Shown: positions 4,795 through 27,870 of the stretch, piece by piece
How positions within the stretch are numbered: the stretch's first letter is position 1
Layout of the letters: each line of letters begins with the position of its first letter
Virus record (IMG/VR): IMGVR_UViG_3300037427_003848
Coordinates: 1-28,944 of that record
Strand: one strand, 5' to 3'
Source of the DNA: a virus
DNA: 28,944 nt
Notes under the pieces: model-generated
Told to the model about the DNA's origin: nothing
What the model saw: only the letters and a program-made list of their open reading frames with translations
The model's database searches: none
Translations under genes and position numbers: made by a program

Positions 4795-5511
4795 ATGAAT
4801 AAATGCGTGATACCAATCTCAGGAGGACTGGATAGTACTGTAATATTACATGATATTACAAATAGTAAATTATATGACGAGGTCCATGCGATTACCTTTG
4901 ATTACGGTCAACGGCATAAACGAGAAATCGACTGCGCTAAGTGGCAAGCACAGCGAGCAAATGTTACGTCTCATAAAATACTAGATATATCCTTCTTTAA
5001 GGAGCTGTCAAATATAAGCTCCTTGACAAATAGTAGCATCGATGTTGCAAATACGAGAGATATTCTAGGAGATCCTCAGACCGTTAATTACGTACCTTTC
5101 AGGAATCAGCTACTATTAACAATATGCTGTTCGTATGCTGAATCGATCGGTGCGAGTACTGTATATCACGGCGCGGCTATGGTTGATAGCCAGGCTGGAT
5201 ACTGGGACGGTAGTGAGGAGTTCCTAGATAGCATGAATTCCTTGCTCCTTCTCAACAGGCGACATACCATAAAAATAGAAGCACCGTTAATATGTAAAGA
5301 CAAGTCAGATATTATAAGATTAGGAGTAAAGCATCGCGTCGATTTTAAAAATACATACACCTGTTACTCTGGAGAAGAGTTATCAGATGCAGAGAATCCA
5401 GCATCATCCTCGAGAATACATGGATTCTTACAAGCCGGGTACATAGACCCTATACCCTATAAGCAAGATATACCATGGTCCCAATGGAATTGTAAACCGA
5501 TTAAAACATGA
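4795..5511 (+). CDS. queC: QueC-like PP-loop enzyme (7-cyano-7-deazaguanine synthase family)
   Basis: 238 aa, the usual QueC size. QueC converts 7-carboxy-7-deazaguanine to preQ0 using ATP and ammonia. The PP-loop ATP motif SGGLDST is at residues 9-15, followed by FDYGQRH and YVPFRNQLLL, typical of the family. The C-terminal part is odd: canonical QueC has one Cys then a CxxCxxC cluster binding zinc, but here only the first (C190 in TYTCYSG) remains, and the cluster region reads DAENPASSS. The usual GYPDCR element reads GYWDGS. It may therefore be a divergent QueC or a PP-loop paralogue with a changed substrate. It shares an ATGA overlap with GMP reductase, so the two are translationally coupled. 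No FolE, QueD or QueE gene is seen in this window. Confidence 0.8.
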   Translation: MNKCVIPISGGLDSTVILHDITNSKLYDEVHAITFDYGQRHKREIDCAKWQAQRANVTSHKILDISFFKELSNISSLTNSSIDVANTRDILGDPQTVNYVPFRNQLLLTICCSYAESIGASTVYHGAAMVDSQAGYWDGSEEFLDSMNSLLLLNRRHTIKIEAPLICKDKSDIIRLGVKHRVDFKNTYTCYSGEELSDAENPASSSRIHGFLQAGYIDPIPYKQDIPWSQWNCKPIKT

Positions 5512-6485
5512 ATACATCCCCAGCACTCAAATACAGCGATATATGCCTGGTTCCAAAGTATAGTACTTTACGTTCGCGCGCAGAAGCTGACGTATCTACT
5601 TATATAGGTAGTAATCCCTTCAGGTTACCTGTAATTCCAGCGAATATGAAAACGGTCATGACGCCGAAGATCGCGGAAACGCTCTCTGAAAATGATTACT
5701 TCTATATCATGCATCGGTTTGATCTTGATGTAGTAGGGTTCGTACGAGTCGCGAATGAGAAAAAGTGGAAGACTGTATCTATTAGTGTAGGGGTTCAAGC
5801 TAATGACTTTGAGATTATCAACACTATATCAACCACCGGTCTTAAAGTCGATTATATTACAATTGATATTGCTCACGGTCACTGTATCATGATGAAAGAA
5901 ATGATATCTCACATTAGGTCAAAACTACCTGACGTGTTTATTATAGCGGGTAATGTAGCTACACCTTGTTCGTGCGCGGATCTTGCCCTATGGGGCGCTG
6001 ACATGATTAAAGTAGGTATAGGTCAGGGTAACGTATGCACTACTAAGGATAAGACAGGGTTTACTATGTCTATGTTTACATGTGTTCAAGCCTGCGCTAA
6101 AGAGCTTAATGGAGATAATAAATGGAAATCAATTCCTATTATTGCTGACGGTGGGATTGAATGTAACGGGGATATTTCAAAGGCAATATCAGCCGGCGCA
6201 AACGGGGTTATGATAGGCTCTATGTTTAGTTCTTGTTCAGATAGCCCTGCTGTAACTACAACTGTTAATGGTGCTAAATATAAACAGTATTACGGATCTG
6301 CTTCAAAGCATAATAAAGGGCATACGCGTAATATTGAAGGCATGATGAAAGAACTACTCGTTACTGAAATGACCTACCTTCAAAAGCTGGAGGAGATCGA
6401 ACAAGATTTGCAGAGCGCTGTAAGTTATGCAGGTGGTGAGAGCCTGCATGACCTTAAAACAGTTGAATATACTATTATTAATTAA
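5508..6485 (+). CDS. guaC: GMP reductase (GuaC, IMPDH/GMPR family)
   Basis: 325 aa, the length of the bacterial GuaC type found in Firmicutes. The enzyme reduces GMP to IMP and ammonia with NADPH. Family signatures run in order: YSDICLVPKYSTLRSRAE at the N-terminus, VIPANMKTVM, FYIMHRFD, ISVGVQ, ITIDIAHGH, IAGNVATP, then the catalytic loop GIGQGNVCTTKDKTGF with C177 as the expected nucleophile. ADGGIECNGD and VMIGSMF form the phosphate-binding region, and EQDLQSAVSYAGG closes the domain. There is no CBS domain, which, together with FYIMHRFD and the length, favours GMPR over IMP dehydrogenase. It overlaps queC by ATGA and has no ribosome binding site of its own. GMP reductase is uncommon in phages as far as I know; see findings. 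Confidence 0.9.
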   Translation: MNTSPALKYSDICLVPKYSTLRSRAEADVSTYIGSNPFRLPVIPANMKTVMTPKIAETLSENDYFYIMHRFDLDVVGFVRVANEKKWKTVSISVGVQANDFEIINTISTTGLKVDYITIDIAHGHCIMMKEMISHIRSKLPDVFIIAGNVATPCSCADLALWGADMIKVGIGQGNVCTTKDKTGFTMSMFTCVQACAKELNGDNKWKSIPIIADGGIECNGDISKAISAGANGVMIGSMFSSCSDSPAVTTTVNGAKYKQYYGSASKHNKGHTRNIEGMMKELLVTEMTYLQKLEEIEQDLQSAVSYAGGESLHDLKTVEYTIIN

Positions 6486-6495
6486 ATAGTACTAC

Positions 6496-6503
6496 TATAA
6501 ATA
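6496..6503 (+). promoter_or_regulatory. T4-late-type promoter TATAAATA
   Basis: Exact TATAAATA followed by 5 bases (CTAGT) and the ATG at 6509. It is one of three exact octamers lying 5 bases before an ATG in the window. It predicts a leaderless late transcript. Confidence 0.65.
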
Positions 6504-6508
6504 CTAGT

Positions 6509-7921
6509 ATGAGATCACAACCTAAGAGTTCCGATAATGATAGTCAAATAATTTGGGAAGATTTTAAATCTACTACTAAAATTAGACAGTCTATAGATAT
6601 TGAAGCATTGTTTGAGAGGGATATCGAGTATATTACTAAATTTTTAATAAATGAAGGCCTTCTCGATGTTGTTAAGTCTGGCTTCGGTAAGGTTAAGGAC
6701 TTTGCATCTCAAAAGCTCTTACAGCCAATTGTTAATATGGCGATGGAGGCGCTAGCAAAGATGGATCCGAATTTAGCTCAACAGTTAGCGGCGGCTGCAA
6801 AGACTGGAGATTCTCAACAATTGCAGCAATTACTTGCTCCTGGTCAAAAAGAAGCAGATAATATTACGACACAAGCAAATCAACAACCGGCGGTAGAGTC
6901 ATATTATCCTGAAGCTGAACTTAATGGTATCATATGTAACGCTCTTGTCGAGAGTGGTATAATTACGACTGGTAAATCTCAGCTGATCCAAGAAAAATAC
7001 ATCCTTAATAACGCGAGAGTAATCTTCAATTCCATACTCGAAGAATCTCGCATGCGGTCTTACTTTGAGGGCTCAATAATCTATCCCTTGATTGAGCAGT
7101 ACACTGGTACTGTCAGGAAAGATGTAAGTATTCTAAAGCAAAATATTAAAGCTTTTCTAGCTGCAAACCCGAAAATGCAAAAGGACGGTAGATTTTCACA
7201 AATTGATCAACTACTTTCCGGGATGGATAGAGACGGTAAAATAAATCAACAATCTCAATCTACAAATACTCCCTCATCTGAAGTACCACCAGAAACATCG
7301 GAACCAGCAGTACCAACTACAGCTCCTGCGCCAGGGGAACAAACTACAGCTTCTGATCCGGAGGTACCAACTACAGCTCCTGTGCCAGGGGAACAAACTA
7401 CAGCTTCTGATCCGGAGGTACCAACTACAGCTCCTGCGCCAGAAGGGTCTCAGCAAAAAGGTATACTTTCGAAAGTATGGAATTATGTTAGTAAGAATAA
7501 AATCACAACTGCACTCGGCGCTCTTGGTCTTATTTCAATTGCCGCAGCCGCGCTTCCGGTCGGTGGTGCGTTAGCACCGATAATCGCGGGTGCTGCAGCA
7601 TCCGCTAAGATAGGTGCAGCAGTTGGAGGAACTATCGGCGCAGCAAAGGGAGCGGTGGATGATCTCCGGAACCCTGTACAGGATGGAGACACTGGTCTAA
7701 GTCGATTAAAATCGGCCGCGAAGGCAGGATTTAAAGGAGGTCTTAAAGGTGCAGCTAAAGGCTCTGGAGTCGGTGCTATTGGTGGCGCGATCGGTGCTCA
7801 AGCGACTGCCACGGATGCAAATCCTCAAACACAGATCGACTATACCGCTGATGATACCGGTGATGATAACGTATACGATTTCCGCAAGCATTTCCCTGAT
7901 AACGACGAAGATGATTTTTAA
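6509..7921 (+). CDS. Putative late/virion protein with 18-aa repeats and Gly/Ala hydrophobic domain
   Basis: 470 aa, family not recognised. Order of regions: a charged N-terminus; a helical Gln/Ala-rich segment (about residues 50-125); a folded-looking middle (about 130-245); a Pro/Thr/Ser/Glu low-complexity linker with 2.4 copies of an 18-residue unit (VPTTAPAPGEQTTASDPE); then a strongly hydrophobic Ala/Gly stretch (about 333-385, with LGALGLISIAAAALPVGG and AAVGGTIGAAKGAV) resembling glycine-zipper membrane segments; and an acidic C-terminus. An exact late-type octamer lies 5 bases before the ATG, so late expression is expected. Candidates are an ejected internal protein, a membrane-active lysis or entry protein, or a capsid-associated protein. 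The N-terminal INE-G site fits the prohead protease pattern (I/L-x-E then small residue). It sits among early-type metabolic genes. Confidence 0.75.
   Translation: MRSQPKSSDNDSQIIWEDFKSTTKIRQSIDIEALFERDIEYITKFLINEGLLDVVKSGFGKVKDFASQKLLQPIVNMAMEALAKMDPNLAQQLAAAAKTGDSQQLQQLLAPGQKEADNITTQANQQPAVESYYPEAELNGIICNALVESGIITTGKSQLIQEKYILNNARVIFNSILEESRMRSYFEGSIIYPLIEQYTGTVRKDVSILKQNIKAFLAANPKMQKDGRFSQIDQLLSGMDRDGKINQQSQSTNTPSSEVPPETSEPAVPTTAPAPGEQTTASDPEVPTTAPVPGEQTTASDPEVPTTAPAPEGSQQKGILSKVWNYVSKNKITTALGALGLISIAAAALPVGGALAPIIAGAAASAKIGAAVGGTIGAAKGAVDDLRNPVQDGDTGLSRLKSAAKAGFKGGLKGAAKGSGVGAIGGAIGAQATATDANPQTQIDYTADDTGDDNVYDFRKHFPDNDEDDF
7311..7442 (+). repeat. 54-bp tandem repeat, about 2.4 copies
   Basis: Copies at 7311-7364 and 7365-7418 differ by one base (gcgcc versus gtgcc), and a partial third copy runs 7419-7442. 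The unit is in frame and encodes the 18-residue Pro/Thr-rich linker of the 470-aa protein. Near-identity implies recent duplication. Confidence 0.95.
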
Positions 7922-7965: not shown

Positions 7966-8637
7966 ATGTGTGGTATATTTGGTGCAGAGAATTCTTCAAA
8001 ATTTGAAACTCTCTATGATATAAATAAAGTGAGGGGAACCTTCGCGTTTGGTAGTGTCACCGTCACACCTAGTGAGCACTACTTGATCCATAAGCAAGAA
8101 GGTATAGTTAATTTCAATGAATTTAGTATGGATTATGATACAAGGTATATTACTGGGCATACTCAAGCTCCTACTTCATGTGAGCGTAAATACGCTGATC
8201 ATACATCTCATCCATTTGAAGCGGGTGAATGGATGGTCGCGCATAATGGTATAATTAGTAACTTCTCAGATCTCAAAAAAGAGCACGCCCCATGGCATAG
8301 TAACAAGGTGGATAGCTCAATTATACCTACCCTTTTAAATGAATTTTATAGTAATTCACCAGACATGGAACCATTACAGATAACCTCGGTTATCTCGAAG
8401 GTATTAAGTATGTTAAAGGGAACGTTTGCGGTATGGATACTCAACAGAGAGACATCTAACATATATATTGCGAGGAGTGGAAGCACTTTATTCTTTGATA
8501 AAGATAGAGTAGCATTTTCGTCTATTGAATGTATGGATTGGGAACCGGTTCAAGAAGGTATAATATATCAATATACAATTGAAGGTTTCACCCAGGTCGG
8601 TACATTCGATTGCGATCATCCGTTTTTCATACTGTGA
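7966..8637 (+). CDS. Stand-alone class II glutamine amidotransferase (Ntn glutaminase domain)
   Basis: 223 aa, starting MCGIFG, so Cys2 becomes the N-terminal nucleophile after Met removal. This domain hydrolyses glutamine and delivers ammonia to a synthase. HTQAPTS (65-71) occupies the place of GlmS HTRWATHG. VAHNGIISNF (H93, N94, G95) is the oxyanion/glutamine motif, and D116-S-S matches the GlmS acidic substrate-binding segment. GTFAVWIL and IARSG follow as in GlmS-type glutaminases. No synthase, isomerase or PurF phosphoribosyl domain is fused, so it must act with a separate partner or alone. The QueC-like enzyme about 2.5 kb upstream uses ammonia and is a possible partner, since fused GAT-QueC proteins are known in archaea and phages. 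That link is inference. Confidence 0.88.
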   Translation: MCGIFGAENSSKFETLYDINKVRGTFAFGSVTVTPSEHYLIHKQEGIVNFNEFSMDYDTRYITGHTQAPTSCERKYADHTSHPFEAGEWMVAHNGIISNFSDLKKEHAPWHSNKVDSSIIPTLLNEFYSNSPDMEPLQITSVISKVLSMLKGTFAVWILNRETSNIYIARSGSTLFFDKDRVAFSSIECMDWEPVQEGIIYQYTIEGFTQVGTFDCDHPFFIL

Positions 8638-16841: not shown

Positions 16842-18041
16842 TTAATTATCACTTAAATTTTTAAGATCTTCCAGTTTAGTAGTAGGCCTAGCTAACCCAC
16901 CAATAGCTGTAAATACATTTAGTCCAGGTTTATTACCTCTATATATACCACGATGTACGGTACTATCAGCCTTAAGGGTTCTAGTTAGTTGCTCAAATGC
17001 ATAATCTAGATGCGCTTCTGGGATTGTTGCTAGAGCGTCTTGCTTACCTATAACAACAGCCGCGGCCACTGTCCCGGTACCGATATCAAATCCACCTGAT
17101 AGTATATTCTGCTTTAAATTCTCTCTAATTGCGTAGCTGATTTTCGTTTCATCGCTATAGTCATTAACGTTTGTAGCTCCGAAGACGATAGTACCGGAAT
17201 CGAGAATGGTTGAATAATCGTTCGGGTCGAAGGTTGAGTAATGGCTATTCCGTGTAATAATTGTATTAAATAAGTGAAATAGAGTACATATACTCATATT
17301 AGCAGTATGCCAGAATCTATCAATTGAAAGATTTGGATATATGTGACCTATCTTCTCATTGTCTAAGACAATAAATGGAGATACAATCCCTTGATCTACT
17401 AAATCTAATGCTTCCGTAAGAGTTTTACAAGCGTTTTCGTTTACCTTCTTACCTTCAGAATACTTAGGTAAGGCTAATATCACTCCGACTTTATCACTAG
17501 AGCATTTATTAGAGATTTGTAAGTCTCTTGCGACTTTAACTATGCTAGATAGAGTACCTGCACCGGTTCCACCACCTGCACCGGCACATACTATAGTCCG
17601 GTCGTATTTTTTACCAAACACTCGCTTAGTGAAATCCAGACAATCCTCCTGCTTACCTTTGAACAAGTTCTTTGCTAACCCGCGGTCCTTTCCAGCTCCA
17701 CCCTGCCCGAAACAAAACTTATTACTGGGTGGTAAGTCAATGGTTGCGAGATCCTGCTCTGCAGTATTCACTACACCTACGCGTCTGTAACCTATCTTAT
17801 AAAATGTTTCGGCTAGCCGAGACCCTCCTTGACCGGTGCCGATAAAGGAAAACTTAAATCCGGAATCGAATTTATCCTTTATTTCCTCCTCCTTATACTC
17901 TACAGCCTGAGGTATCATAATATCGTTAATATCTATATCATAGTCACCAAATACGTCTGTAGGTACATCGGTTGTAGCGTCATCTAAGTCACTACTCGGT
18001 GTATTTTCTAAATCATCACTAGAGTTAATCTGTTCGTTCAT
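16842..18041 (-). CDS. FtsZ/tubulin-superfamily GTPase
   Basis: 399 aa from the ATG at 18041; a longer frame back to 18098 exists, but the late promoter lies inside it, so the shorter start is chosen. An acidic N-terminal extension (about 60 residues) precedes the GTPase fold: GTGQGGSRLA (T1, about 68-77), VVNTAEQDL (T2), GQGGAGKDRG (T3), the tubulin signature GAGGGTGAG (154-162), LPKYSEGKK (T5), LDNEK with N228 for guanine contact (T6), and the T7 loop FDPNDY (D272, D275) that completes the neighbour's active site. All catalytic elements are kept, so filament formation is likely. Phage tubulins known to me (PhuZ of jumbo phages, TubZ of c-st) position DNA or the replication nucleus. An exact TATAAATA 5 bases upstream predicts late expression. 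Confidence 0.88.
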   Translation of the reverse strand: MNEQINSSDDLENTPSSDLDDATTDVPTDVFGDYDIDINDIMIPQAVEYKEEEIKDKFDSGFKFSFIGTGQGGSRLAETFYKIGYRRVGVVNTAEQDLATIDLPPSNKFCFGQGGAGKDRGLAKNLFKGKQEDCLDFTKRVFGKKYDRTIVCAGAGGGTGAGTLSSIVKVARDLQISNKCSSDKVGVILALPKYSEGKKVNENACKTLTEALDLVDQGIVSPFIVLDNEKIGHIYPNLSIDRFWHTANMSICTLFHLFNTIITRNSHYSTFDPNDYSTILDSGTIVFGATNVNDYSDETKISYAIRENLKQNILSGGFDIGTGTVAAAVVIGKQDALATIPEAHLDYAFEQLTRTLKADSTVHRGIYRGNKPGLNVFTAIGGLARPTTKLEDLKNLSDN

Positions 18042-18046
18042 ATAAA

Positions 18047-18054
18047 TATTTATA
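18047..18054 (-). promoter_or_regulatory. T4-late-type promoter of the tubulin-like gene
   Basis: Exact TATAAATA leftward, 5 bases (TTTAT) before the ATG at 18041. It sits back to back with the rightward -10 box at 18056-18061. Confidence 0.7.
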
Positions 18055-18055
18055 G

Positions 18056-18061
18056 TATAAT
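18056..18061 (+). promoter_or_regulatory. -10 element for the 130-aa gene
   Basis: TATAAT 5 bases before the ATG at 18067. No clear -35. It overlaps the divergent late promoter region of the tubulin-like gene, so the two may compete. Confidence 0.45.
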
Positions 18062-18066
18062 ATATC

Positions 18067-18459
18067 ATGAAAGATGCCCCTAGTAAGTTTAATACCATAT
18101 GTGAAGATATTATGATGATGTCCGCGAAGCGTAATCATGGAATGGGAACAAGTGAGTTGAATCCGACAAAGGTTAACCTGTTAGATATTCTAAGCTCGCA
18201 TAAAAAATCAAAAAAGGAGCAGGAGCAATCTGGAAATGTAAGTCCATATCCTCTACAGGTTGATCCAATGATTCAACATTTAGGTGATCTCTATCTTGCT
18301 GCTCATCAGATCGGCGCCAAGATTAACAACGCTGGTACAAATCCATTAATTAGTGATCATGAAGATTATTTAGATACTATAAAAAAATGTACTGGTAAGA
18401 TTGTAGCCATTAAAAAAGCTATTAAAGCTATTGCAGCTGACTTAGGTAGCATACAGTAG
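18067..18459 (+). CDS. Unknown protein, 130 aa, divergent from the tubulin-like gene
   Basis: The N-terminal half is Met/Lys/Ser-rich and polar (EDIMMMSAKRNHGMGTSE). The C-terminal half looks like a three-helix bundle (MIQHLGDLYLAAHQIGAKI, then DYLDTIKKCTGKIVAIKKAIKAIAADLG). No catalytic or membrane motif is seen. It starts 25 bases from the tubulin-like gene's ATG on the other strand, so it could be a regulator or partner by position, but nothing in it resembles a TubR helix-turn-helix. Function not assigned. Confidence 0.7.
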   Translation: MKDAPSKFNTICEDIMMMSAKRNHGMGTSELNPTKVNLLDILSSHKKSKKEQEQSGNVSPYPLQVDPMIQHLGDLYLAAHQIGAKINNAGTNPLISDHEDYLDTIKKCTGKIVAIKKAIKAIAADLGSIQ

Positions 18460-20405: not shown

Positions 20406-20757
20406 CAGTTACCCTTTTCAGCATGAATGAATTCGTATTTATATTAAGGTATAACTTAATACCAGTGGTTCCGAGCTCGCGACCTGCGTCATTATTAATA
20501 TTTTTTATATTATATTTGCTCATGATCTGCCGGGCTTCGATATGACTAACAGGAACCTCTCTAGTAGAATTGCTACCTCTAAGAGCTTCGACCTTAGATA
20601 CATTAGACATATCCTCTCTGGCTGAATCCGGAACTAAGCGCTGATTTAATCTACCTATTCCAACTGCTCCTCGTTGGATTTTAGTCTGGCTAGGTCCAGT
20701 CGAAGAGGTTACCCTCCGGTCCATAGCTCTATTGAAGTAGTCCTTGAAGTCCTCCAT
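20398..20757 (-). CDS. Unknown late protein, 119 aa, upstream of the gp14-like gene
   Basis: N-terminal basic segment (MEDFKDYFNRAMDRRVTSS), then a Ser/Arg/Gly-rich likely disordered middle, then a C-terminal alpha/beta part (ARQIMSKYNIKNINNDAGRELG and IKLYLNINTNSFMLKR). A T4-late octamer TATAAATA is 5 bases before the ATG, and the 3' end overlaps the neck-protein gene by 8 bases. A virion or assembly role is likely from promoter and operon partner, with no family recognised. Confidence 0.7.
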   Translation of the reverse strand: MEDFKDYFNRAMDRRVTSSTGPSQTKIQRGAVGIGRLNQRLVPDSAREDMSNVSKVEALRGSNSTREVPVSHIEARQIMSKYNIKNINNDAGRELGTTGIKLYLNINTNSFMLKRVTDE

Positions 20758-20762
20758 ATTAG

Positions 20763-20770
20763 TATTTATA
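20763..20770 (-). promoter_or_regulatory. T4-late-type promoter of the 119-aa gene
   Basis: Exact TATAAATA leftward, 5 bases (CTAAT) before the ATG at 20757. It overlaps by one base the U-run of the terminator that closes the upstream gene. Confidence 0.7.
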
Positions 20771-20833: not shown

Positions 20834-21580
20834 TTACTTGAGCGCGTCACCTGGCGTTACAGTAGAACCAGCCGGTTTGTCATTTTTCGGATTTTGAAGG
20901 GCCTTGCCTCCAGCATCACTAAGTTCTTTAGGTTCTGGCTCATTCTTTGGGTCACCTTTACTGGCTTTCCCTCCCTTACCCTTCACTTTACCGACTTTAT
21001 TATTAGTACCTTGTAAGGATTTACCCTTACTGTCTGAAACTGTTTCAGCATCGACTGCTTCTCCAAATGGATCCTCTTCATCGTCACCATCTTCTCCATC
21101 GACCAGATCTTCAATATCTAAATCTCCATCTTCTTCATCGTCTCCGTCAAGCTGTGCTAAAATATCTCTTAAAGCGTCGACTTGATCACCGGATAACGTA
21201 ACTGTTACCTCACCTTCTGTGTCAGAATCCGCTTCAGGCTCTCCACCATCAGCATCTTCTCCGGTATCGTCAAGAGGAGGGAATTCATCATCAAAATCAA
21301 ATCCATCCTCCATGATAGTTGAGTAGAGTTTATCAAAAATATTAATATCTGTCTTTTTCATGGGTTGTATACTAGTATTTATAGTCTCTTTTATGTTTTT
21401 TCCCGATTTTTTTGGTTTTTCGGATACTTTTTTTGAATATAATGTAGATCTCTCATTAGAGTCCTTAGGATCAACTACTGATTGCACTTCATCATCTAGT
21501 TCTAATGTTGAAATATCATCACTTGATTTATATTCTTTCTCTAATTCTGCTGCACCTGTATTGTTATTAGATTTACTCAT
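20834..21580 (-). CDS. Acidic, low-complexity protein, possible prohead core/scaffold
   Basis: 248 aa, family not firmly recognised. The first about 80 residues are polar and Ser/Lys/Glu-rich. A short ordered element FDKLYSTIMEDGFDFDDEF precedes a long Asp/Glu/Gly run and VTVTLSGDQVDALRDILAQL, the only clearly structured segment. A second acidic run ends FGEAVDAE. The C-terminal part is basic and Gly/Lys-rich (NKVGKVKGKGGKASKGD) and closes with Lys/Asn/Pro. Marine T4-like phages have similar proteins by memory. The charge pattern fits a scaffolding or internal head protein. The late-type octamer overlaps the terminase start, and a strong terminator follows. Confidence 0.7.
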   Translation of the reverse strand: MSKSNNNTGAAELEKEYKSSDDISTLELDDEVQSVVDPKDSNERSTLYSKKVSEKPKKSGKNIKETINTSIQPMKKTDINIFDKLYSTIMEDGFDFDDEFPPLDDTGEDADGGEPEADSDTEGEVTVTLSGDQVDALRDILAQLDGDDEEDGDLDIEDLVDGEDGDDEEDPFGEAVDAETVSDSKGKSLQGTNNKVGKVKGKGGKASKGDPKNEPEPKELSDAGGKALQNPKNDKPAGSTVTPGDALK

Positions 21581-21581
21581 A

Positions 21582-21589
21582 TATAAATA
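21582..21589 (+). promoter_or_regulatory. T4-late-type promoter of the terminase gene
   Basis: Exact TATAAATA rightward, 5 bases before an ATT codon at 21595. This is the same distance that separates the octamer from ATG at 6496, 18047 and 20763, and it marks the probable terminase start. Confidence 0.65.
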
Positions 21590-21597
21590 TATTTATT
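21590..21597 (-). promoter_or_regulatory. Late-type octamer for the acidic-protein gene
   Basis: AATAAATA leftward, 9 bases before the ATG at 21580. It overlaps the first codon of the proposed terminase start, so the two divergent promoters are interleaved. Confidence 0.45.
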
Positions 21598-23319
21598 AAA
21601 AATAATAAACAACTCAACGATCAAGTTACCGGGAATGAAGGCTTTTATTTAGGTAATACAAAGCTACCGACTGACAAGACTCAATACTCATGGGATGCAT
21701 CCATGGTTAAAACGCTTAAGAAGTGTACTCGTAATATATTGTATTTTGCAGAGAACTTCTTTTATATAGTAAATCTTGACCGTGGTAGAGATAAAATCCA
21801 TTTATATTCATGTCAAAAGACAGTCTTGAGACGTCTCCGGGATGATAGGTTTAATATAGTTCTAAGTTCCCGGCAGTCAGGTAAGACTACGATGATGACG
21901 ATATACGCGCTTTGGATTTGCTGCTTTTACGACGATCAGAGAATTTTATTAGTAGCCAATAAGGAACAAACTGCTGGTAATATATTTAAAAGAATTAGAT
22001 TAGCGTACGAGCTGCTACCTAACTATCTTAAACCGGGTGTAACAGAATATGGTAAGACGTCAATGGCTCTAACGAACGGAAGTAGTATAGGTATTAGCAC
22101 AACAAGTAGTGATGCGGGTAGAGGTGATAGTTGTAATGTACTCATACTTGATGAGCTAGCCTTTATACCTAATAATCTTGTAGAGGATTTTTGGCGATCT
22201 GTTTATCCTATTGTTTCTTCTTCGAAGAAATCTAAAATATTCATAGCTAGTACACCTAATGGAACTGGTAATTTATTTCACTCGCTATATAGTAACGCTA
22301 TTAATGGTAAAAATAACTGGACGGCCTCACGGATAGACTGGTGGGAAATACCTGGTCGTGATGAAGAATGGAAAAAGTCTACCATCCAGTCTCTAGGTTC
22401 CCGAGAAGCGTTCGCGCAAGAATTCGAAAATGAATTCATTGAAGGTGGAGAGGCAGTACTAAATGATGATGTATTAAATAAGCTCCTAATAGGTATTAAG
22501 CCTCCGGAATTTATATTTGATGGCGGATCTTATAATATATGGGTCGAGCCTGATCCTGAATCTAGGACCTATGTTGCAGGAGTAGATATAAGTGAAGGTG
22601 TAGGTAAGGACGCGAGTGTTATTCAAATCCTAGATATTACAGACCCTACAACAATTGAACAAGTAGCAATATACCATAATAGGGAAATAAATCCTTATAA
22701 CTTCACTAGTAAGTTATATGAGATATTACAGAACTGGGGTTCTCCGCTAGCGTTAATTGAGAGGAACAGTTGCGGTATCCAAGTTGTTGATAATTTACAT
22801 AATATACACGGCTATCAGAATATTATAACCTATAACGAGAGTGCATCGAGGATGAAATATGAGAGAAAGGGAGTCGTCGCGCATACCAACTCAAAGTATA
22901 AAGGCGTTACAAATATGAGATATTGGATATCTGAGGTATGCGCTGTTGTCCTTCATGATAAGGAAACTGTTACTGAGCTTCGTAATTTTGTCCGGTATCC
23001 AAATGGCCGGTGGGCCGCAAAGCGAGGAGATGGTATGCATGATGATAGAGTGATGTCACTTGTATGGGCTTTATTTATATTAGAACAGTCTATACTAGAG
23101 AAGTACTTTGAAGTGATTGAGTATGACTCAAACAATAAGCCACGAATTATTGCGCCGATGGATTTTGGAATACAACAGTTCACTAATCCTCTATCTCTAT
23201 ATAATGATGAATCACCCGCGAGTGAAAGTAATGCAACACCTTTACTATTTAATGATGATATGGAAAATGATGATATATCATATATGATGCAGCAGGGATG
23301 GGAGTTCCCGAATAAGTAA
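21595..23319 (+). CDS. 17: Terminase large subunit (T4 gp17), probable ATT start
   Basis: The packaging ATPase/nuclease: 574 aa from ATT at 21595, or 538 aa from the first ATG at 21703. The 36 residues before that ATG include GFYLGNTKLPTDKTQYSW, which looks like the conserved gp17 N-terminus, and the frame from the stop at 21568 contains no ATG, GTG or TTG before 21703. Numbering from ATT: Walker A SSRQSGKT (K97), Walker B LILDELAF (D186, E187), coupling motif ASTPNGTGN, and the nuclease acidic triad D331 (GVDISEG), E389 (LIERNSCG) and D483/D484 (HDDRVM). All motor and nuclease residues are present. A late-type promoter lies 5 bases upstream of ATT. The next gene starts 7 bases after the stop. 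Confidence 0.93.
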   Translation: MKNNKQLNDQVTGNEGFYLGNTKLPTDKTQYSWDASMVKTLKKCTRNILYFAENFFYIVNLDRGRDKIHLYSCQKTVLRRLRDDRFNIVLSSRQSGKTTMMTIYALWICCFYDDQRILLVANKEQTAGNIFKRIRLAYELLPNYLKPGVTEYGKTSMALTNGSSIGISTTSSDAGRGDSCNVLILDELAFIPNNLVEDFWRSVYPIVSSSKKSKIFIASTPNGTGNLFHSLYSNAINGKNNWTASRIDWWEIPGRDEEWKKSTIQSLGSREAFAQEFENEFIEGGEAVLNDDVLNKLLIGIKPPEFIFDGGSYNIWVEPDPESRTYVAGVDISEGVGKDASVIQILDITDPTTIEQVAIYHNREINPYNFTSKLYEILQNWGSPLALIERNSCGIQVVDNLHNIHGYQNIITYNESASRMKYERKGVVAHTNSKYKGVTNMRYWISEVCAVVLHDKETVTELRNFVRYPNGRWAAKRGDGMHDDRVMSLVWALFILEQSILEKYFEVIEYDSNNKPRIIAPMDFGIQQFTNPLSLYNDESPASESNATPLLFNDDMENDDISYMMQQGWEFPNK

Positions 23320-23326
23320 TATAGTA

Positions 23327-23920
23327 ATGAGCTCAACAGATATAGGTAGTATTCAGCAGTCCGTTCTCAACAAATCGAGAAAAGATAAATTTATTATGGT
23401 AGTGATGCTACCAAAAGCGTTAAGAGAAATTAACCTATCAGTTTCCCGTGATATTAATCTAGTAAATGAAAATGCATTACAGTTTAGTGTTTACGGGATC
23501 ACAGTACCTTCTGTGATTGTCGATGCAGTTGAGGTACCATATGGCGGTCAGGTATTTAACTTTACAAGTCATAACCGCCCGGATTATGAAACAATTTCGG
23601 TTAATTTTACTGTTGATAATGAATTCAATAATTACTGGGCTATATATAAGTGGATCAATCTTCTTAATAATAATAAAGAGGCATTCTTTTATGCAGAAAA
23701 AATACCGGTGCTTAATAACCCATTCTCTGAATATGCTACAACCATCACAGTATATGGTCTAGATGAATATAATAATAGACGAATCCAATTTGACTATATA
23801 GGAGCTGTTCCGGTTGGGCTCGGGGAGATTAATTATAACTACCGGGATTCAGAAGAAATTGAAACTACATTTCAATTTGCATTCAGCCAGCTACATGTGA
23901 AGCCCTTGCCAGAAGATTAA
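23327..23920 (+). CDS. Tail-tube-fold structural protein, upstream of the sheath
   Basis: 197 aa. The core FSVYGITVPSVIVDAVEVPYGGQVFNF, then YETISVNFTVDNEFNNYWAIYKWINLL and the closing strands GAVPVGLGEINYNYRDSEEIETTFQFAF, follow the layout of gp19-type tail-tube proteins (two-sheet barrel with a helix after the long strand). Length is slightly above T4 gp19 (163). Because another gp19-like gene follows the sheath directly as in T4, this one may be a tube paralogue, a tail-terminator or a tube-initiator type. It is 7 bases after the terminase, without an obvious promoter, so it is probably co-transcribed. Confidence 0.7.
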   Translation: MSSTDIGSIQQSVLNKSRKDKFIMVVMLPKALREINLSVSRDINLVNENALQFSVYGITVPSVIVDAVEVPYGGQVFNFTSHNRPDYETISVNFTVDNEFNNYWAIYKWINLLNNNKEAFFYAEKIPVLNNPFSEYATTITVYGLDEYNNRRIQFDYIGAVPVGLGEINYNYRDSEEIETTFQFAFSQLHVKPLPED

Positions 23921-26429: not shown

Positions 26430-26963
26430 ATGGCAGACATTAAACAAGCAATTTCGGATTTCTACAGAGTCGCACAAGAGCGAGACTTCGCTAGAGACTT
26501 TCAATATAGAATTATTAATATCTCTAGTGACAACTTTTCAATCACTGAAGAGGATCTAGTTTATGCTAAAGGTGGAGAGGTACCTTCAAGGTCGATCCAA
26601 AACCATACAGCACCTTACATGGGGTTAGATTTTAATGTCCCGGGCGCGGTTTCATATTCCGGAAGCTTTGCTTTAGACTTCTATTGCGATACTCAATCTA
26701 CTTTACGTAGAATGTTTGAAGGATGGTCGTTTAATACTTTTGATGAAGAAACTAGTAGCGGTGATTACTTCGTACCAAAACCATCATCTGTATTAGATAT
26801 GGTGCAAGTAGACTCTCAGTTCCAGCCAGTATCTAGATATCAACTAGTAGGTGTATATCCAACTGAGGTCGGCGCGATGTCATACGATATAACAGGAGCT
26901 GGAGCCCCGATCTCTCTAGGTGTTACATTACAGTATCACTTCTGGAAAAGATTAGCACCATAA
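26430..26963 (+). CDS. 19: Tail tube protein (T4 gp19)
   Basis: 177 aa (T4 gp19 is 163). It forms the hexameric rings inside the sheath. The N-terminus ends in RDFARDFQYRIINIS, comparable to gp19 DFARPNLFQVEIS. The C-terminus LVGVYPTEVGAMSYDITGAGAPISLGVTLQYHFWK parallels gp19 LWPTNVGELQLDWDSN and the final LALDYWE. It directly follows the sheath, as 19 follows 18 in T4. A late-type CCTAAATA lies 5 bases before the ATG. Of the three tube-fold genes here this is the best candidate for the main tube subunit. Confidence 0.85.
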   Translation: MADIKQAISDFYRVAQERDFARDFQYRIINISSDNFSITEEDLVYAKGGEVPSRSIQNHTAPYMGLDFNVPGAVSYSGSFALDFYCDTQSTLRRMFEGWSFNTFDEETSSGDYFVPKPSSVLDMVQVDSQFQPVSRYQLVGVYPTEVGAMSYDITGAGAPISLGVTLQYHFWKRLAP

Positions 26964-26991: not shown

Positions 26992-27870
26992 ATGCTAGAC
27001 AACTTTCTTAAAGGAGCTCAAGAGCTCGGTAAAGGTGTAAATAATCTCTTAGGTTCCGCCGGAGGCCCTACGCTTAAATTATTTGGAACTAATCTGCCAT
27101 TTTCTCCAATCTTAAGCTATAGAGACCACTTCCTTAATATGCTCGAGACCTGGAGTGCTAGCATTCCTAATAAATTCTTATGGCTTGTATGGATTGATGA
27201 TTATCCAGAAATACTAACTAGTGGAATCATCCGCGATTGGGAAAAGAATGGTAAGACAGGAGATGCTTGGAATGTAGCTAAGAATGTTAAAACTTTAACC
27301 TCAATTCACTATCAAACAATCCAGGGCTGCATTTTCGCGACAGGTGTAAATATACCAGGTGAGCAATATAATACAGGGTATGCAGACATACCAAACGCTA
27401 AAGGATTTGTACCGGTTCCTTACGGTGATGTGAGGCAATCACCATCTGAGCTCACAATACAATTCAGAGAGACAAATACTTCTTTTGCGGATTTTCTGAT
27501 TAGACCGTGGGTAATCCTCGCATCTCATCTCGGCCTAGTAGCTAGAAAAGGTGATGAGCCTCAAGCCGGTACAAAGAGCTCGCAGAATATTAAGAGTAGG
27601 ATACGAGTTATACAGCTTGGTAAGACAGTAGCTGGTAGATCATCAATTCAGCGGAAAATATTTACGTTTCACGACTGTACACCAACGAGGATGGAAAATT
27701 CCGACCTATCATATGACGGTGATGAAGTACAAAACTTTAACATTACATGGACGTATAGAAACTATACAGTAGAAGGTCTACCCTGGCTTCCAATTGATAA
27801 AATTGTTAAGGACTTATCTACAGGTAATATATTTAACATTATCAATAGTGTCCAGCAAATAGATTTATAG
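26992..27870 (+). CDS. Tail-tube/baseplate junction protein (gp54- or gp48-like)
   Basis: 292 aa. A Gly-rich N-terminus (LDNFLKGAQELGKGVNNLLG) precedes a tube-type domain: FLWLVWIDDYPEI, GVNIPGEQYNTGYADIPNAKGFVPVPYG, ELTIQFRETNTSFADFLIRPW, and the closing strands with FTFHDCTPTRMENSDLSYDGDEVQNFNITWTYRNYTV. The last pattern is typical of the tube fold. The length is close to T4 gp54 (320), the tube initiator on the baseplate, and its place after gp19 among tail genes fits; gp48 is the alternative. It carries a late-type octamer TGTAAATA 6 bases before the ATG. The assignment is by fold pattern, not by sequence match. Confidence 0.6.
   Translation: MLDNFLKGAQELGKGVNNLLGSAGGPTLKLFGTNLPFSPILSYRDHFLNMLETWSASIPNKFLWLVWIDDYPEILTSGIIRDWEKNGKTGDAWNVAKNVKTLTSIHYQTIQGCIFATGVNIPGEQYNTGYADIPNAKGFVPVPYGDVRQSPSELTIQFRETNTSFADFLIRPWVILASHLGLVARKGDEPQAGTKSSQNIKSRIRVIQLGKTVAGRSSIQRKIFTFHDCTPTRMENSDLSYDGDEVQNFNITWTYRNYTVEGLPWLPIDKIVKDLSTGNIFNIINSVQQIDL

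Follow-up and report, generated by a model that had tools for sequence, protein, structure and literature searches.

A possible AUU start codon for the terminase gene of an uncultured T4-like phage whose late genes apparently lack leaders

In a clade of T4-like phages (the virus record analysed here and related loci L002-L239), late genes apparently give mRNAs that are leaderless or nearly so, as judged from their promoter positions, and they show no enrichment of Shine-Dalgarno (SD) sites. The window, by which we mean the whole 28,944-base virus record, comes from an uncultured T4-like phage. Its terminase gene probably starts at position 21595, where an ATT occupies the place of the start codon. 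We tentatively propose a natural leaderless late mRNA in which translation of an essential packaging protein begins at a 5'-terminal AUU, within a clade that mostly dispenses with leaders and SD sites. The leaderless, SD-free late genes of the clade are the firmer and broader result.

Results and discussion

The terminase reading frame and its conserved N-terminus

The following features, all on the plus strand, define the gene.

21595 to 23319, plus strand: T4 gp17-like large subunit of the terminase (574 residues with the ATT as first codon)
21598 to 21642, plus strand: variable N-terminal extension KNNKQLNDQVTGNEG, of a length in keeping with the longest N-termini among relatives (15-18)
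21643 to 21702, plus strand: N-terminal segment FYLGNTKLPTDKTQYSWDAS, conserved and found in 126 of 126 relatives, ahead of the first ATG
21703 to 21705, plus strand: first in-frame ATG, inside the conserved protein and an unlikely start
21635 to 21637, plus strand: out-of-frame ATG in the +1 frame, which needs an indel or a frameshift

By sequence, the gene product is a T4-type terminase large subunit of the ordinary kind. Its ATPase and RNase H-like nuclease domains match family profiles (Pfam Terminase_6N, 2.1e-17, and Terminase_6C, 1e-5; phrog_5989, 2.9e-53, and phrog_2, 5.1e-48), and Walker A (SRQSGKTT) and Walker B (VLILDELAF) motifs are present. Relatives in viral contigs match it at 55-65%. 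The frame follows a TAG at 21568-21570 and is open from 21571 until the stop ending at 23319. A frame scan from 21571 found the ATG at 21703 to be its first ATG, GTG or TTG, as an initial sequence-only reading of this DNA had stated.

Relatives were gathered from viral contigs by using three queries, and 126 distinct terminase start regions were kept. Y, L and P residues in the segment encoded by 21643-21702 are invariant across them. A start codon lies ahead of the segment in every case, either ATG (109 relatives) or only GTG or TTG (17 relatives, comprising 16 GTG and 1 TTG), so the window is the exception. Differences between the window and its relatives within this segment peak at third codon positions (0.60, versus 0.42 and 0.41 at the others), and the next 20 codons downstream follow the same pattern (0.64 versus 0.39 and 0.41). 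Since all 126 relatives retain the segment and have a start codon ahead of it, the alignment indicates that translation must begin upstream of 21703 and that the DNA is coding at least from 21643. Initiation at the ATG at 21703, with the preceding segment untranslated, would use the first RTG codon of the frame. It is nevertheless extremely unlikely, given that the 20 residues before this ATG are conserved throughout the relatives and that the third-position excess upstream of it resembles that of the coding region just downstream.

The sequence-only reading had taken the residues before 21703 for the translated, conserved gp17 N-terminus, and the relatives bear this out; homologues that begin at the residue of the 21703 ATG, with nothing conserved upstream, were not seen among the 126. 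That reading had proposed alignment of the whole of 21595-21702 with related gp17 proteins. Conservation holds for 21643-21702, whereas similarity across 21598-21642 is not significant. In particular, the KNNKQ of the extension resembles MSEKNNKQ of locus L005 no better than shuffled sequences do (755 of 1000 and 431 of 1000); because shuffles do as well, homology of the extension was left out of the evidence.

Among the terminases that lack an ATG are those of L051, L055-L058 and L060, in which a GTG or TTG lies 6 codons ahead of the conserved motif and ATA stands where L016 carries ATG.

Late promoter octamers set at a fixed distance from start codons

The sequence that matches the T4 late promoter lies immediately upstream of the ATT, and copies at the same distance from an ATG occur elsewhere in the window.

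21582 to 21589, plus strand: TATAAATA, an exact match to the T4-type late promoter octamer, assigned to the terminase gene and predicted to span -13 to -6
21595 to 21597, plus strand: ATT, predicted +1 and probable terminase start codon, 5 bases past the octamer
6496 to 6503, plus strand: comparison site TATAAATA, 5 bases from the ATG at 6509
18047 to 18054, minus strand: comparison site TATAAATA, 5 bases from the ATG at 18041
20763 to 20770, minus strand: comparison site TATAAATA, 5 bases from the ATG at 20757

Both the exact octamer 5 bases ahead of the ATT and the repetition of this spacing at the three comparison sites had been pointed out earlier, and both are confirmed. The minus-strand gene at 16842-18098 was called from its longest frame, and its start at 18098 is probably wrong; 18041 is more plausible (399 aa), because it lies 5 bases past the octamer at 18054-18047.

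Given the AT-richness of the window, the octamer alone is no rarity: 13 copies were found, 7.8 were expected, and 9 of 100 shuffles reached 13. The distance from octamer to start codon, by contrast, departs strongly from chance across related contigs. An octamer was counted when an ATG or GTG frame of at least 60 codons begins within 120 bases, which is true of 248 of the 317 distinct exact octamers in these contigs. The start lies 5 bases away in 104 of them, 6 in 32 and 7 in 20, with few at 0-4. Spacings of 5-7 thus account for 156 of 248; related contigs are among those counted, and the cases are not independent. The reverse octamer was uninformative as a control because ATAAATAT overlaps the same sites, and T4 and cyanophage S-RSM4 were used as spacing controls in its place. 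Their octamers stand 14-73 bases (in a 49-kb stretch of T4) and 22-40 bases from the start, respectively.

SD cores are likewise not enriched ahead of the clade's start codons (96 of 951, versus 73 of 951 at a control position) or in the window (1 of 27 at both positions), whereas they precede 31 of 43 starts in T4 (control, 1 of 43). The spacing of 5-7 and the lack of SD enrichment together underlie the leaderless reading of the clade's late genes. The T4 late octamer occupies -13 to -6 [PMC1524935], so a spacing of 5 bases would place the start codon at +1 and leave the mRNA leaderless. For the terminase gene, the predicted +1 is the A of the ATT at 21595. The octamer and the clade-wide spacing identify the element as a T4-type late promoter, and the RNA start is predicted from it. 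No matches to the gp45, gp55 or gp33 families were found among the window proteins scanned, the window being a fragment of a genome. A literature search that covered few subscription journals turned up no account of T4-like phages with leaderless late genes.

Many genes of the clade have GTG, but not TTG, at spacing 5-6 (L164, L203, L208, L214, L235 and others). In the window, early-type genes (2942, 3443, 4795, 7966, 11289) lack an SD site and have TATAAT-like boxes only about 5-10 bases ahead of the ATG, so that their mRNAs, too, may have little or no leader.

The intergenic promoter region is shared with a divergent gene, and this arrangement recurs in relatives.

20834 to 21580, minus strand: divergent late gene, 248 aa, very acidic, no family match
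21591 to 21598, minus strand: AATAAATA, a site resembling the late octamer and assigned to the divergent gene, whose ATG is about 9 bases away

In relatives, the divergent gene likewise shares a near-palindromic TAAATATTTA promoter region.

It is improbable that a real ATT is used within a leadered RNA, that is, that transcription begins upstream or the 5' end otherwise differs and AUU or another near-cognate codon is used internally. An ATT preceded by a leader can start translation in mycobacteria [PMC4633059], and 20-35 bases separate promoter from terminase ATG in L002, L004, L013 and L162. However, no SD motif occurs upstream of 21595, the DNA upstream lies antisense to three genes on the minus strand, and an exact late octamer already stands at the spacing that the clade prefers.

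Position and identity of the start codon

The 16 codons between the predicted +1 and the conserved segment (21595-21642) are ATT AAA AAT AAT AAA CAA CTC AAC GAT CAA GTT ACC GGG AAT GAA GGC, and the ATT is the only one a single base away from ATG. Initiation here would give an N-terminus of KNNKQLNDQVTGNEGFYLGNTK, with 16 residues ahead of FYLGN. Start-to-motif distances in relatives are typically 6-18 codons, and N-termini of 15-18 residues (L195, L197, L176, L086, L165) bracket the 16 of the window.

The ATG at 21635 is the only other ATG between the promoter and the conserved segment, 8 bases ahead of the latter, and a missing or extra base in the assembly, or a ribosomal frameshift, could join it to the frame (MKAFYLGN...). 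This explanation is very unlikely: it leaves 3 residues ahead of FYLGN versus 6-18 in relatives, the run involved comprises only four T residues, and the ATG is 45 bases from the octamer.

If initiation does occur at 21595, either the phage uses an unusual start codon there, or a single base in the assembly is an error or a rare variant. Start codons at spacing 5-6 after the octamer in related contigs number 209 ATG, 75 GTG and 0 TTG, and ATT occurs there 5 times. Four of these five ATT codons have an ATG or GTG within 12 codons; only that at 21595 has no alternative, and it is the sole non-RTG case with a recognisable gene. GTG starts of some related terminase genes have a near-leaderless spacing of 6 (L164 group).

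Leaderless initiation elsewhere is restricted in a similar way. In mycobacteria, it occurs at ATG or GTG only, and ATT works only with a leader [PMC4633059]; in E. coli, leaderless mRNAs require AUG [PMC4611024, PMC5622118]. IF3 acts against AUU and against leaderless mRNAs alike, and AUU starts depend on IF3 and IF2 [PMC4611024, and work cited therein]. These restrictions, with the ATG and GTG starts of the clade, make a consensus error or a rare allele a serious rival. Under this explanation, the start is still at 21595, the codon in the population is a normal ATG or GTG, and the ATT is an error or a rare, perhaps defective, allele. A single substitution in the ATT would restore the octamer, 5 bases and RTG found throughout the related contigs. 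Each of the 34 other window genes examined has an ATG start, and switches from ATG to ATT at bacterial start codons are very rare (1 of 61,358 [PMC5622118]). Against an error, there is no sign of poor assembly, and the terminase and other long frames are intact. Nor was a second copy of the locus that might show another base found in viral contigs, either with an exact pattern or with the third codon base left open, in a search that may omit records very near the window. No terminase relatives were found among bacterial genome contigs, and no named phage close to the window was found at the DNA level.

We place genuine use of AUU at 21595 just short of an even chance and consider an erroneous or rare base a real but somewhat smaller possibility. 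The two are put close as a matter of judgement rather than computation, because a miscalled consensus base somewhere among about 100 start-codon bases and a natural AUU start have rough priors of similar magnitude. Thus, the earlier proposal of a leaderless late mRNA with ATT as its first codon stands as to the upstream start, the late promoter (by context) and the expected 5' end at 21595, and AUU as the working codon is less secure.

A model for terminase expression

In the proposed model, the late sigma factor and RNA polymerase would use the TATAAATA at 21582-21589, and RNA would begin at 21595, to yield a leaderless mRNA, 5'-AUUAAAAAUAAU... The ribosome would be placed on the 5' end, as it seems to be for most late genes of the clade. 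About the first 28 bases of the predicted RNA are unpaired, and this unstructured, AU-rich end would probably be bound by a 70S ribosome, as in known leaderless systems. Initiator tRNA would then decode the 5'-terminal AUU, probably weakly, to begin fMet-KNNKQLNDQVTGNEG-FYLGN... Such weak initiation would be in keeping with the GTG and TTG starts of related terminase genes. The start upstream of 21703, the rule for octamer-to-start spacing and the lack of an available RTG start come from comparison; we infer the exact +1, leaderless translation, AUU use and low expression.

Relation to known systems

The infC gene of E. coli has a rare AUU initiation codon, against which IF3 discriminates, and its mRNA is leadered. 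The window terminase would share the AUU and differs in that it is predicted to lack both leader and SD site. As a leaderless phage mRNA, the cI mRNA of phage lambda resembles those predicted for the clade, but it starts with AUG and represents one gene, not an entire late programme.

T4 shares the gp17 terminase family and the same octamer, TATAAATA. However, its late genes have leaders, with at least 14 bases from octamer to ATG, and SD sites (31/43). The promoter of the clade is T4-like in sequence but apparently used without leaders. In addition, T4 gene 17 overlaps the end of gene 16, whereas the window terminase gene diverges from a minus-strand gene. The nearest named terminase (38%) is that of Sinorhizobium phage phiM9 (Pootjesviridae), which differs in having no exact TATAAATA in the 41 kb examined and some SD usage (15 of 36).

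Mycobacterial leaderless translation [PMC4633059] has a promoter-set, 5'-terminal start codon without an SD site, as late genes of the phage clade apparently do, and both use ATG and GTG and not TTG. ATT fails at the 5' end in mycobacteria, whereas it is the only candidate for the window terminase, and the window represents a phage with a T4-type late promoter that is known from sequence only. By analogy, the terminase would fit leaderless translation of the mycobacterial kind and, having ATT in place of a 5'-terminal AUG or GUG, would fall outside the RUG leaderless class on its codon.

Use of AUU would violate the rule that only AUG or GUG can serve as a 5'-terminal start, and would provide a natural test of start-codon choice in the absence of a leader. 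Apart from AUU, the late promoter of a widespread, uncultured T4-like group appears to set the start of translation. Gene callers that look for ATG, GTG or TTG together with an SD site will put these starts in the wrong place. The pattern also hints at hosts with robust leaderless translation.

Other features of the window

Three separate genes (23327-23920, 26430-26963 and 26992-27870) match the tail tube family phrog_45. The replication region includes QueC-like, IMP dehydrogenase/GMP reductase-like and glutamine amidotransferase-like genes (4795-5511, 5508-6485 and 7966-8637, respectively). Within the gene at 6509-7921, near-perfect direct repeats are visible by eye at 7310-7450.
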